Below, piece after piece: positions 979 through 12,755 of a DNA stretch of 23,235 nt; the first letter of the stretch is position 1; each line of letters opens with the position of its first letter. The translations under genes were made by a program, and so were the position numbers. This stretch comes from a virus. The stretch spans positions 1 through 23,235 of IMG/VR virus record IMGVR_UViG_3300026321_000021; one strand, written 5' to 3'. The notes under the pieces are model-generated. The model did no database searches. It saw only the letters and a list, made by a program, of their open reading frames with translations, and was not told where the DNA came from.

Positions 979-1446
979 TTATTCCTCAATTAGGGTACCG
1001 TGTTGTCTACGGATTTCACGTAGTTGTTCAAAGTCTTTCTGCTTGGTGCCACCATCGTATTCCCATGCATAACCTTCTTCGATCATCTGCTCATTTAATG
1101 AGAGAGTATCTTCATTTATATATAACCATCCCAAGAGGCGGCCATATTTACCTACACCACCTTTTAATTCTGTGCGAATACTAAGCTCGTCTCCGTCACC
1201 AGCTATAGTATCTTCTAATTTCTTTTTGAGCCAGTTGGTTGCTTCTATTCCCAGTGCCTTCTCTTCCAGGTCTCTTGTTCTCTTCTCTGGCGTATCAACT
1301 CCTGCAACTCTAACTCTTTCTTTCTTGTATAGATCAAAGCCGAGATCGATAGTAACATCAATAGTGTCACCATCAAGTACCTTGTTTATCTCCGTCACTC
1401 GGAAGTTGTAACAACTCTTCCGGCTCGGTGGAACCATCGCACCCAT
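979..1446 (-). CDS. Staphylococcal-nuclease-like (thermonuclease) family protein
   Basis: A 155-residue protein of the SNase/thermonuclease fold, a Ca2+-dependent phosphodiesterase family acting on DNA or RNA. Motifs in order: VLDGDT (residues 23-28), RVAGVDTPE (46-54), KYGRLLGWLY (100-109) and LNEQMIEEGYAW. They match the SNase active site: D27 (SNase Asp21), R46 (Arg35), D51 (Asp40), E54 (Glu43) and R103 (Arg87) are all present, so activity is expected. No signal peptide is visible, so it should act in the infected cell, perhaps in nucleotide salvage. That role is inferred. A GGAG lies ten bases before ATG 1446. The first 13 residues look unlike the fold's usual beginning, so an internal start is possible (ATG nine bases later, or the GTG at VTEINK). 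Confidence 0.9.
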   Translation of the reverse strand: MGAMVPPSRKSCYNFRVTEINKVLDGDTIDVTIDLGFDLYKKERVRVAGVDTPEKRTRDLEEKALGIEATNWLKKKLEDTIAGDGDELSIRTELKGGVGKYGRLLGWLYINEDTLSLNEQMIEEGYAWEYDGGTKQKDFEQLREIRRQHGTLIEE

Positions 1447-1531
1447 GTTCGTCCATCTCCAACTCTAGTATTGAGTTATTTAGCATCTCTTCTACAGGGG
1501 TGCGATTCTGTTCAGACTTCCATTCCCTCAT
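1373..1531 (-). CDS. Small acidic protein of unknown function, overlaps the nuclease gene
   Basis: A reading frame of 52 residues from ATG 1531 (MREWKSEQNRTPVEEM), or 72 residues from ATG 1591. It is rich in glutamate and aspartate and ends in SDGDKQGT. It begins across the end of the preceding membrane-protein gene and overlaps the nuclease start by 74 bases in the +1 frame. No good ribosome binding site precedes either start, so expression would rely on coupling. The N-terminal 30 residues read like a real amphipathic peptide. The overlapping tail may simply be the nuclease sequence read in another frame. No family is recognised, and the call is tentative. Confidence 0.4.
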   Translation of the reverse strand: MREWKSEQNRTPVEEMLNNSILELEMDEHGCDGSTEPEELLQLPSDGDKQGT

Positions 1532-1676
1532 TTTGTGTAACCACTGATTCGGATTGATGGTTATCCAGGTCGTTAGGAGAGTGGGTATCATAGGTCATTA
1601 TCCAATATATTAGGTATCCTACCATACTAAGCATGGTACCTAACATAATATTTATAGACCAGACTACGTTATTCAA
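1512..1676 (-). CDS. Small membrane protein, probable TTG start
   Basis: A 54-residue protein with one long hydrophobic segment (VVWSINIMLGTMLSMVGYLI, residues 4-23, continuing YWIM) followed by a polar tail. The frame is open from an ATG at 1718, but that start lies 50 bases inside petE. I chose TTG 1676 because AAGGAG, inside the last petE codons, lies nine bases upstream, and because this start overlaps the petE stop in the compact style of the region. A later ATG (1646 or 1634) is possible, because an exact late-promoter motif lies at 1649-1656 inside the gene. Being next to plastocyanin does not by itself suggest a photosynthetic role. Function unknown. Confidence 0.5.
   Translation of the reverse strand: MNNVVWSINIMLGTMLSMVGYLIYWIMTYDTHSPNDLDNHQSESVVTQNEGMEV
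1649..1656 (-). promoter_or_regulatory. Candidate T4-type late promoter, exact TATAAATA
   Basis: Minus-strand TATAAATA, identical to the T4 late promoter -10 element read by the gp55/gp33/gp45 system. It lies inside the small membrane-protein gene, just after petE. From here a late transcript would cover the nuclease, the 61-residue membrane protein and gp17, leaving petE outside. The motif also encodes residues of the membrane protein, so chance occurrence is possible. Confidence 0.5.
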
Positions 1677-2052
1677 CGTGTATGACTCCTTGCATCCCTG
1701 CTCCAGCATGGGGATCACACTGAATCTTGTAGTCTCCTGTGTCTGGGAATGTTACATCGAAACTATCTCCAGCAGCGAATGCTAGGTCCGAATGTGATAG
1801 TTCTGGATGATCTGCTACCTGCATGTTATGTGGTGGCAAATCTCCATTAGTGAATGTAACTGTATCTCCAGCAGAGATTGTTATCTCATTGGGCTCGAAG
1901 ACTAAGTTGCCTCCTGATCCCATCGTTATATCAGCAGCGTATGCTGATGCTGCGAAAACAAATGAGAATGCTAGTGCACAAAGCATGACTGTTATCCTGC
2001 TCATCCACCACATTATCTCATCCTTATTTTCTCGTATTGTGTCGGTAGTCAC
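1669..2052 (-). CDS. petE: Plastocyanin (photosynthetic auxiliary metabolic gene)
   Basis: A blue copper protein that carries electrons from cytochrome b6f to photosystem I in the thylakoid lumen. It has 127 residues. A hydrophobic signal peptide ends in ASAYA, with cleavage predicted after residue 39. The mature domain is about 88 residues, somewhat shorter than host plastocyanins (usually just under 100). The type 1 copper ligands are all present: H75 (PPHNM), C112, H115 and M120 in CDPHAGAGM. The start is GTG 2052: AAAGGAGG at 2059-2066 sits six bases upstream, the best ribosome binding site in the window. An internal ATG after AAGGATGAGATA would give a shorter leader (starting at residue 14). 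One base separates it from the preceding small gene (TGAAGTG). Known as a cyanophage auxiliary gene, it likely keeps electron transport running during infection. Confidence 0.95.
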   Translation of the reverse strand: MTTDTIRENKDEIMWWMSRITVMLCALAFSFVFAASAYAADITMGSGGNLVFEPNEITISAGDTVTFTNGDLPPHNMQVADHPELSHSDLAFAAGDSFDVTFPDTGDYKIQCDPHAGAGMQGVIHVE

Positions 2053-2053
2053 T

Positions 2054-2215
2054 TCACGCCTCCTTTATGATATAGTCAAAAAAATGAGGATGCCCCTCTA
2101 GGAAGGGGACATCCTCTTTGCTGTGTTCCATCGCTTGATATGCATCTTCTGCATACTCGCAAATTTCTAGTTTTTGACGTTGAGCATCGTGATATCCAAC
2201 TGTGTAGTGTGACAT
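2054..2215 (-). CDS. Small conserved-looking protein of unknown function upstream of petE
   Basis: A 53-residue frame starting MSHYTVGYHDAQRQKLEICE and ending HPHFFDYIIKEA. Its stop TGA is one base before the petE GTG, so the two are probably co-translated. The composition is typical of a real soluble protein: aromatic start, an acidic middle (EYAEDAYQAME, KEDVPFLEGH) and no membrane segment. No catalytic motif or family is recognised. No good Shine-Dalgarno precedes ATG 2215. About 60 bases of non-coding DNA lie upstream (2216-2276), the longest such stretch in the cargo block. The gene also contains a terminator-like hairpin, listed separately. The petE spacing and the unbroken frame support the gene. 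Confidence 0.7.
   Translation of the reverse strand: MSHYTVGYHDAQRQKLEICEYAEDAYQAMEHSKEDVPFLEGHPHFFDYIIKEA
2078..2116 (-). terminator. Terminator-like hairpin inside the 53-residue gene
   Basis: Read on the minus strand, GAGGATG-T-CCCCT pairs with AGGGG-CATCCTC: 12 base pairs, one bulged T and a six-base loop. ATTTTTTT follows directly. It has every part of an intrinsic terminator, yet it encodes EDVPFLEGHPHFF and lies only about 30 bases before the petE start. It could act as an attenuator or an RNA 3'-end stabiliser, or be chance. Confidence 0.55.
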
Positions 2216-2276
2216 CTGTTGTAGCCGAGGGCTCGCCTATGTTATGTGCTAATATTTAGGTATTAACCCTCACATA

Positions 2277-2411
2277 TTAAGGCTTTTTATCCGCATGTGA
2301 AGACGCTGTTCTGCAATCCTGACGTTTGCGCTCAAAGTCAACTTGAGCTAGTAGGGCTTGGGTCTTGGCAAGTCTTGCTGCCTTTTCCTTTGGACTTTCT
2401 TGCGGTTCCAT
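2277..2411 (-). CDS. Small charged protein, +1 frame overlap with the preceding gene (or its displaced C-terminus)
   Basis: A 44-residue frame from ATG 2411: MEPQESPKEKAARLAKTQAL, then LAQVDFERKRQDC and HADKKP. It is helical and rich in lysine, alanine and glutamate, which looks like true protein, whereas the overlapping end of the 83-residue gene (KSKGKGSKTC, then SPTSSS) looks like out-of-frame sequence. The two overlap by 74 bases. Two explanations fit: a separate coupled gene with no clear ribosome binding site, or the real C-terminal half of the upstream gene displaced by a one-base indel or a +1 frameshift. Function unknown. Confidence 0.5.
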   Translation of the reverse strand: MEPQESPKEKAARLAKTQALLAQVDFERKRQDCRTASSHADKKP

Positions 2412-2589
2412 AGTTCTCGATGAATTGCTTGTAAGTCAACGGTGGTTTGACCATTTCCTTTTGGGCTAATTTATTAGCCGTAGCATACATCACTTCCTTG
2501 TCACGCGTACCATATAAGCGTTTAAAATCAGAGGAACGTTTCTTCATTCCTCTAACAATATACTCTGCCTTTTGATTTACAAGAGGCAT
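2338..2589 (-). CDS. Small basic protein of unknown function
   Basis: An 83-residue basic protein. The N-terminal 45 residues (MPLVNQKAEYIVRGMKKRSS, then DFKRLYGTRDKEVMYATANK) contain the pattern F-x-x-x-Y-G ... V-M-Y-A-T-A-x-K. I associate that pattern with short hypothetical proteins of cyanophages; this is from memory, not from a search. The next part (PPLTYKQFIENYG) is plausible. The last 25 residues look out of frame, and a better-looking frame overlaps them (the 44-residue entry). One base separates its ATG from the upstream stop (TAAGATG), which suggests coupling with the probable virion protein before it. The molecular role is unknown. Confidence 0.65.
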   Translation of the reverse strand: MPLVNQKAEYIVRGMKKRSSDFKRLYGTRDKEVMYATANKLAQKEMVKPPLTYKQFIENYGTARKSKGKGSKTCQDPSPTSSS

Positions 2590-2590
2590 C

Positions 2591-3127
2591 TTAGCCGCCT
2601 ACTACCTGTACTTCTTCAATCACTACTGCATTAGTAGCTACTGTTAATTTTACTGCTCTCTGGACTTTTGCTTGCGGTCCAGAATATGCATATGTATAGT
2701 CAGCACTAGCTGATGAAGAGTCTATATCTGTGCTTATGGTAGTATTAGTCGCTGCTGTTATCTTTTTACCAGCGGTTCCTGCTGATAAGAAATTACTGTC
2801 AATCGCAGGAGAAGTGCTGTTATCCACCACAGCAATGTAGTCTCCTACTGAGAAAGGATGTGTACTAGATCTTTCGCCAAGATTGGTACCTAATATATAA
2901 TCTGCTGTAGCGTCATCAACGCCCTTTACTACAGTTGCTGAGCCAGGCTTTGCACCTTTGATTAGTAATGCTATGTCTTGGATCAGGGTTATAGCGGGTC
3001 CACCGTTAAAGCTAATAGTAGCATCACCTGCTGTGGCAACGCAACGGTAAAAACCAGTTTGCACAGTTTGATACTCAGATGCACCTGCGGCCACTGAGTT
3101 TGTGCTCAAAACATTAAGTACTGTCAT
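2591..3127 (-). CDS. Probable virion or decoration protein, unknown
   Basis: A 178-residue beta-rich protein high in threonine, serine, alanine and valine, without cysteine-rich or catalytic motifs. The N-terminal part (YQTVQTGFYRCVATAGDATI) and PFSVGDYIAVVDN resemble small beta-sandwich phage structural proteins. It ends VIEEVQVVGG. A candidate late promoter (GATAAATA) lies 26 bases before its ATG, inside the end of gp16, which fits a late virion protein. No Shine-Dalgarno is visible. It sits eight bases after gp16. The structural call rests on composition and context only; no family is identified with certainty. Confidence 0.65.
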   Translation of the reverse strand: MTVLNVLSTNSVAAGASEYQTVQTGFYRCVATAGDATISFNGGPAITLIQDIALLIKGAKPGSATVVKGVDDATADYILGTNLGERSSTHPFSVGDYIAVVDNSTSPAIDSNFLSAGTAGKKITAATNTTISTDIDSSSASADYTYAYSGPQAKVQRAVKLTVATNAVVIEEVQVVGG

Positions 3128-3135
3128 TGTCGTGT

Positions 3136-3564
3136 CTAGTTAGATTCTGTATTATTTATCTCTTTTTGTTGCTTAAGCATCTTTTGAAGGTCTGCGGTAC
3201 TCCCTACAAACATAGTATTGTTAACCGTAGACGGTCCTTTCTTCTCTTCTTTATCCAATTCTTTCATCTTTCCTTGCAAGTCAATCAACTTATCAGTTAC
3301 ATCTCCCACTGATTTGATGAGTTGGCCAGCAACTTCATAAGCACGAGGATGATCTGACGCTCGTGCCACATCAAGTATGCCATCTACTGCCTCCTGTCCT
3401 TTCATTACTAGGCTATGTAGGTTAGCACGACTCATCTCATAGTCTTGCTTTATGTCAACACTATCAGTCTTTTTTACTGGAAGTGCTTGCTTCACTTCCT
3501 CATGTCTTGCTATATCTGCTGGCTCACTGCCAAATACTTTATCTAAACCTTCAAAGGTTGCCAT
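3136..3564 (-). CDS. 16: Terminase small subunit (gp16)
   Basis: A 142-residue small terminase that recognises DNA and regulates the gp17 motor (T4 gp16 is 164 residues). The central helical part matches the T4-like family: QDYEMSRANLHSLVMKGQEA (about 60-79), RASDHPRAYEVAGQLIKSV and TDKLIDLQGKMKELD, which form the coiled-coil oligomerisation core. The C-terminal third (STVNNTMFVGSTADLQKML) is a probable motor-binding tail. GAGG about six bases before ATG 3564 serves as ribosome binding site. It follows gp15 by seven bases. Its usual partner gp17 lies about 2.3 kb downstream instead of directly after it. Confidence 0.92.
   Translation of the reverse strand: MATFEGLDKVFGSEPADIARHEEVKQALPVKKTDSVDIKQDYEMSRANLHSLVMKGQEAVDGILDVARASDHPRAYEVAGQLIKSVGDVTDKLIDLQGKMKELDKEEKKGPSTVNNTMFVGSTADLQKMLKQQKEINNTESN
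3153..3160 (-). promoter_or_regulatory. Candidate late promoter before the 178-residue virion gene
   Basis: Minus-strand GATAAATA, one base from the T4 late consensus TATAAATA. It sits inside the last codons of gp16, 26 bases before ATG 3127. Spacing and downstream gene type fit a late promoter. It is a short motif, so chance cannot be excluded. Confidence 0.5.
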
Positions 3565-12720: not shown

Positions 12721-12728
12721 TATTTATG
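12721..12728 (-). promoter_or_regulatory. Late promoter of the giant fibre gene
   Basis: Minus-strand CATAAATA, one base from the T4 late element TATAAATA. It lies in the short non-coding gap between an intrinsic terminator and the fibre ATG at 12687. Location in non-coding DNA, spacing of about 34 bases to the start, and the terminator directly before it make this the best promoter candidate in the window. Confidence 0.65.
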
Positions 12729-12732
12729 CCAC

Positions 12733-12755
12733 AAAAAAGGGGGAATTATTCCCCC
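12733..12755 (-). terminator. Intrinsic terminator overlapping a stop codon
   Basis: On the minus strand GGGGGAATAATTCCCCC forms a seven-base-pair stem with a three-base loop, followed by TTTTTT. The loop TAA is the stop codon of the 80-residue gene, and the 5' arm encodes its last residues. It should end transcripts coming from gp8 and the DUF4815 gene before the fibre promoter. Confidence 0.85.

Follow-up and report, generated by a model that had tools for sequence, protein, structure and literature searches.

A hairpin with a U-rich tract directly behind it, encoded within a conserved small gene of cyanophages, is supported by comparative evidence as a nucleic-acid element under selection on top of the selection that acts on the encoded protein. 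The element was analyzed in a 23,235-nt stretch of viral DNA (IMG/VR record IMGVR_UViG_3300026321_000021, hereafter the window), where it lies just upstream of petE, and in homologous genes from phage genomes and viral contigs. We think it probable, though well short of assured, that it is an intrinsic (Rho-independent) terminator internal to the open reading frame (ORF), which would attenuate a late transcript and be suppressed by a ribosome close behind the polymerase.

The small gene and its internal hairpin

The host gene of the hairpin is a minus-strand ORF of 53 aa (positions 2054 to 2215) whose product matches the phrog_8866 profile over residues 1 to 52 of 53 (E 1.6e-26). It corresponds to T4-GC 224, a family of unknown function with annotated relatives in the cyanomyoviruses P-SSM2, P-RSM4, S-SSM7, P-HM2, and P-SSM7. 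An AlphaFold model of the protein, of moderate confidence (pLDDT 78), contains strands and a helix, and the residues encoded by the stem form the helix end and a loop. One base separates the stop codon from the GTG start (2052) of petE (1669 to 2052, minus strand; phrog_515 PetE, PF00127), which encodes plastocyanin with a signal peptide, so that the junction reads TGA-A-GTG; in most homologues the stop codon overlaps or abuts the next start. The Shine-Dalgarno-like AAGGAGG of petE (2059 to 2065, minus strand) falls within the final codons of the small gene, clear of the hairpin. The gp16 gene (3136 to 3564) is three ORFs upstream. The g15-g18 region is a known hyperplastic region of cyanophages (PMC2984593), and petE cassettes vary within it.

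On the minus strand the hairpin runs from 2116 to 2086 and reads GAGGATGTCCCCTTCCTAGAGGGGCATCCTC. Its stem has 12 bp, consisting of seven outer pairs, a bulged U (2109), and five inner pairs, and an alternative register gives 13 pairs. The left outer arm GAGGATG (2110 to 2116) comprises the codons for E34 and D35 and the start of V36, and is followed by the left inner arm CCCCT (2104 to 2108), the loop TCCTAG of the centroid structure (2098 to 2103), the right inner arm AGGGG (2093 to 2097), and the right outer arm CATCCTC (2086 to 2092), which includes the codons for H42 and P43. The stem occupies codons 34 to 44, so the ORF overlaps the stem of the putative terminator. Directly 3′ is ATTTTTTTGA, that is, A TTTTTTT GA (2085 to 2076, minus strand), with the seven Ts at 2084 to 2078; the A and U7 tract (2078 to 2085) would form the 3′ end of the terminated RNA. 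The sequence thus has the features by which intrinsic terminators are recognized, a stable G+C-rich hairpin and a U-rich tract directly 3′ of it on the transcribed strand. The minimum free energy (MFE) of the 31-mer is −20.9 kcal/mol, and among 2,000 synonymous recodings that preserve the peptide and follow the codon usage of the window, none was as stable (mean −8.4, sd 3.7). When both strands of the 23-kb window were scanned for terminator-like sites, the hairpin at 2116 to 2086 with its U-tract ranked first. The coordinates and fold given in the initial annotation, a 12-bp hairpin and seven Ts within a 53-residue gene before the petE ribosome binding site, are therefore confirmed. An ordinary intergenic terminator, GGGGGAATAATTCCCCC followed by T6, is found elsewhere in the window (12739 to 12755, minus strand) upstream of a gene encoding 2112 aa, and is adjoined by a CATAAATA box at 12728 to 12721.

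Conservation of the stem among homologues

Protein searches returned 41 phage records and 160 viral-contig loci, in which the gene takes two forms: one with an ED-x6-HP motif (usually EDVPxLxxHPHFID) and an "NPHA" form, EDLxGFNxPHxAEYC, which is one residue shorter. The stem is kept in 67 of the 68 unique ED-x6-HP genes, the exception being locus L063 (GAAGATC...CATCCCC). The distance from the start codon to the stem is 99 nt in 59 of the 68 genes and 105 to 114 nt in the remainder. P-SSM2, P-SSM7, and P-RSM6 are among the phages with the stem. A terminator was called inside every stem-bearing gene with enough flanking sequence (61 of 61) vs. none of the 46 NPHA genes, which gave no call within 60 nt downstream of the gene either. 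The U-tract is more variable than the stem: an uninterrupted U7 occurs in few homologues, the tail is interrupted in most (ATTTTATT; TTTTATT), and those of P-SSM2 and S-SSM7 are weaker. Homologues of the same protein without the stem, named in the initial annotation as evidence against the element, do exist as the NPHA clade and L063, but their C-terminal coding sequence has diverged as well. The stem/no-stem difference may have a single origin, because the label requires only three changes on an N-terminal tree, which is poorly resolved (93 columns).

The stemless gene of L063 (L063 2080 to 3962), which has the HPH motif, is isolated, with minus-strand genes on either side, and the strong terminator that follows it, 189 nt past the stop codon, is of the ordinary kind; this locus offers a natural comparison, the same gene with the terminator moved out. 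Past the U-tract, the protein tails differ in length and sequence (L007, L012, L014, L029, L035, and L081), with a recurrent ...GIPMGH/R C terminus among them, as if recombination had exchanged tails right behind the hairpin. Most homologues of the small gene, from both the stem-bearing and the stemless clades, are preceded by a conserved 5′ leader, GGAGTTGAAA(C/G)(T)ATC-ATG-TCC.

Codon statistics were confined to loci found through protein similarity. A search of viral contigs for the pattern GAGGATG..CATCCTCNTTT also picked up hairpins unrelated to this one, as well as matches to the same gene on the reverse strand, and the loci found in this biased way were left out of the codon and energy statistics and used only for counting inner-stem changes. 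Among the protein-found loci, the codons of the outer arms are nearly invariant: GAG in 48 of 49 (33% in the rest of the same genes), CAT in 49 of 49 (42%), and CCT in 48 of 49 (19%), with GAT in 48 of 49 and, in the tail, TTT in 44 of 44. The comparison with flanking genes points the same way, both for the stem (GAG, 49/49 vs. 38%; CCT, 49/49 vs. 51%) and for the tail codons TTT (Phe; 45/45 vs. 62%) and ATT (Ile; 36/36 vs. 44%). The Lys codon preceding the stem is AAA in 36 of 43 genes (50% elsewhere), which is also typical of the A-tract before a terminator. Because the sequences are related, every binomial P value is inflated; neither the contrast along the gene nor the swaps between near relatives, both described below, depends on such values.

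Synonymous diversity across 39 gene clusters, a set that excludes sequences without CATCCT and so lacks one stemless gene, averages 0.44 in the N-terminal codons upstream of the stem, falls to 0.00 to 0.01 at the seven invariant codons of the stem and tail (E, D, H, P, H, F, and I), and is 0.51 at the very next codon. The constraint thus covers the stem and the following eight bases and ends right there, which argues for an intrinsic terminator, as does the synonymous conservation of the U-tract in itself. Diversity also dips seven and six codons before the stem, at a Glu (0.10) and an Ala (0.20) codon. In 49 unbiased unique sequences the mean MFE of the native hairpin is −17.9 kcal/mol vs. 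−5.2 kcal/mol for synonymous recodings and −13.6 kcal/mol when the inner codons alone are recoded, and every native sequence is more stable than its own inner-recoded mean.

The inner arms vary among relatives yet remain complementary, at times through a shift of register. Compensatory stem changes in related phages, proposed in the initial annotation as a check, were accordingly found in the inner stem, some of them between near-identical genes. Outside the stem, L011 and L036 are 3.8% divergent, yet C12-G21 in one is G12-C21 in the other, and between L011 and L171 the pair A9-U24 is swapped for U9-A24. Four pairs are altered on both sides in the covariation set, whose score of 0.339 compares with 0.125 for shuffled alignments (reached in 0 of 500) and 0.04 to 0.11 for slid ones; the 15 sequences were chosen for the register of the window, and the score leans towards it. 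The seven outer pairs hardly vary and so contribute no covariation evidence.

Transcription-unit layout and proposed mechanism

About 40 nt upstream of the start codon of the small gene lies a putative promoter, the late-promoter-like box CCTAAATA (2253 to 2260, minus strand), with one mismatch to the cyanophage late-promoter consensus NATAAATA (PMC2984593). Of 57 unique sequences preceding stem-bearing genes, 50 carry a T4-like late box 27 to 48 nt before the start codon, compared with 127 of 731 other ORFs (17%) and about five expected in shuffles. The order in the window, late-promoter-like box, small ORF, hairpin, and petE, is consistent with that of an attenuator. Because the element is flanked by the probable promoter on one side and the downstream gene on the other, leaving hardly any space for another promoter, attenuation is the natural reading of this anatomy. 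A transcript starting at the small gene's own late promoter is likelier to meet the hairpin than one arriving from gp16, the source originally suggested.

The element accompanies the small gene, not petE. The gene that follows 66 unique stem-bearing genes is petE in 33, a petE-type signal peptide without plastocyanin seen in 23 (about five of them cut by contig ends), and another gene in 10. In Syn1, S-MbCM25, S-H38, and S-RIM12, petE occurs in other gene contexts and the small gene is not adjacent. The selected hairpin, the synonymously conserved U-tract, and their placement support the proposal of attenuation before petE, but not its specificity for that gene. A "sensor for petE", as the small gene had been described, is too narrow, since half of the copies are followed by a signal peptide only, a cut-off contig, or another gene. 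The orphan signal peptide is a petE-type leader, MWWMSRLTIM...AAQAYA/AYV, of 26 to 27 aa counted from MWW, which ends at the cleavage site. It follows the small gene in L001, L030, L087 (P-SSM7 PSSM7_113), and about 15 more loci, and is elsewhere fused to plastocyanin, as in the window (2013 to 1936).

The mechanism that we propose is a race between ribosome and polymerase, for which the argument is the placement of the stem within the catch-up range known from E. coli together with the precedent of pyrL. The first ribosome in E. coli catches up with the polymerase over about 100 to 200 nt, and a terminator placed within the initial 100 bp of a coding region is effective there, whereas one located further in is repressed by the following ribosome (PMC4824070); a ribosome advancing on E. 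coli pyrL inhibits the pyrL terminator (PMC5021804). The phage stems, which begin 99 to 114 nt after the start codon, fall within this E. coli window, although the host here is an infected cyanobacterium. Transcription from the late promoter just upstream would pass the start codon and, some 100 to 140 nt later, produce the hairpin and the U-tract. If no ribosome were near the polymerase, the hairpin would form and transcription would stop within the small gene; if the first ribosome had caught up, it would cover the left arm and the polymerase would continue into petE or the signal-peptide-like gene. By analogy, then, a ribosome that follows the polymerase closely probably suppresses the terminator, prompt translation leading to read-through and delayed translation to termination. 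In this way the element would determine how many transcripts are short and how many full, and the downstream cassette would rely on the small gene being translated promptly.

We detected no conserved partner for a mutually exclusive antiterminator pairing in the upstream codons of the homologues (mean synonymous diversity 0.44). Two candidate pairings were rejected: the start region ATGTCCC is present in the stemless clade too, and an upstream GATGC gives a weak pairing that is not conserved. The lack of a conserved alternative pairing upstream of the stem makes a trp-like switch unlikely. Because few homologues have an uninterrupted U7, ribosomal frameshifting and transcription slippage on that tract were rejected by reasoning.

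Alternative explanations and known systems

The main rival is a plain leaky terminator, a constitutive element that sets a fixed leak at a module boundary without sensing ribosomes and overlaps coding sequence for economy in a compact genome. The hairpin and U-tract evidence applies to it equally, the missing antiterminator partner and the synonymous freedom of the upstream codons suit it, and an E. coli terminator 30 bp into an ORF loses about 10% of its efficiency under translation (PMC4824070). Situated downstream of its own late box and before its own stop codon, however, such a terminator would cut the mRNA of its own gene, and ribosomes normally repress terminators in later coding sequence; we regard this explanation as unlikely. 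It is improbable that the hairpin instead acts in RNA stability or processing, guarding the upstream mRNA at its 3′ end or a processed petE mRNA at its 5′ end from nucleases, or slowing ribosomes before the petE start, with no termination involved. A conserved, covarying hairpin with the petE Shine-Dalgarno sequence just downstream and outside the stem would be compatible with such a role, which nevertheless leaves unexplained why TTT and ATT are invariant up to the end of the U-tract and not past it.

That asymmetry bears also on elements acting as DNA, either an inverted-repeat operator, whose 7-bp half sites would be separated by 17 bp, or an anchor for recombination at a cassette boundary within the hypervariable g15-g18 region. 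The nearly invariant outer half sites and their constant spacing, the C-terminal tails that vary in length and sequence past the site, and the known hyperplasticity of the region (PMC2984593) would all fit; yet the spacer covaries so as to preserve base pairing, the conserved T-tract flanks one side only and an operator would not need constraint on it, and the reading frame imposes constant spacing as well, which together make a DNA-level role very improbable, its small remaining probability resting on the near-invariance of the outer pairs. Finally, a conserved peptide motif, here KEDV...HPHF, could in principle be encoded by codons that happen to be complementary. A chance by-product of this kind can hardly account for synonymous sites frozen only in the stem and tail, for synonymous recodings that rarely or never fold as well, or for pairing that is kept while the inner amino acids vary, and a chance origin of the hairpin is refuted by the codon, recoding-energy, synonymous-diversity, and covariation comparisons.

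The favored explanation, an ORF-internal terminator suppressed by a closely following ribosome, has points against it too. Termination within an ORF would yield non-stop mRNA, a cost; the tails of most homologues are interrupted, the late box in the window is off consensus, and no conserved antiterminator partner is evident upstream; the outer pairs vary too little to yield covariation, and the downstream gene is not always petE. A broader version is rather doubtful: a phage-wide late-gene attenuator would use a conserved coding gene as its leader, with the terminator at a fixed distance of about 100 nt equal to the catch-up length of the ribosome, so that a photosynthesis cassette would be expressed only with prompt translation, for example in a light-energized cell.

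In the pyrBI attenuator of E. coli, the leader peptide serves for regulation, and coupling is set by a pause that responds to pyrimidines. The phage ORF, in contrast, encodes a member of a conserved protein family and showed no pause signal, and the setting is a cyanobacterium infected by a T4-like phage. The two are alike in that a short ORF runs through an intrinsic terminator upstream of a gene; in pyrL, an advancing ribosome prevents termination (PMC5021804), as it would in the phage. Trp-type leader attenuators likewise place promoter, short ORF, terminator, and downstream gene on one transcript, as the phage locus may, but that locus has no conserved antiterminator pairing, and its putative terminator lies within the ORF where theirs follows it. 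Bacterial coding sequences are known to contain intrinsic terminators or 3′ ends (Li 2015, PMC4824070; Adams 2021, PMC7815308), and the spacing between ribosome and polymerase was found to set termination efficiency (PMC4824070); those studies concern reporter constructs or a survey of E. coli 3′ ends, whereas the present element is phage-borne and conserved across dozens of homologues. Intergenic terminators of the same hairpin and U-tract type were described in cyanomyoviruses by Sullivan 2010 (PMC3037559), where a terminator was accepted only between genes or no more than 10 bp from the end of an ORF. The hairpin would have been missed by that rule because the site is too far inside the ORF. 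Rfam gave no relevant match in positions 1200 to 3200 of the window, even at E up to 5. The literature searched, whose coverage left out most subscription papers, contained no report of the element and no cyanomyovirus Term-seq or RNA-seq map of the locus.

Strongly selected transcription signals within conserved genes are easily missed. If the proposed mechanism is true, the distance between ribosome and polymerase would control an auxiliary metabolic gene, that for plastocyanin, in abundant viruses of the ocean. The family would then also provide a natural test system, made up of homologues that have or lack the stem and of compensatory variants, which separate RNA from protein effects.
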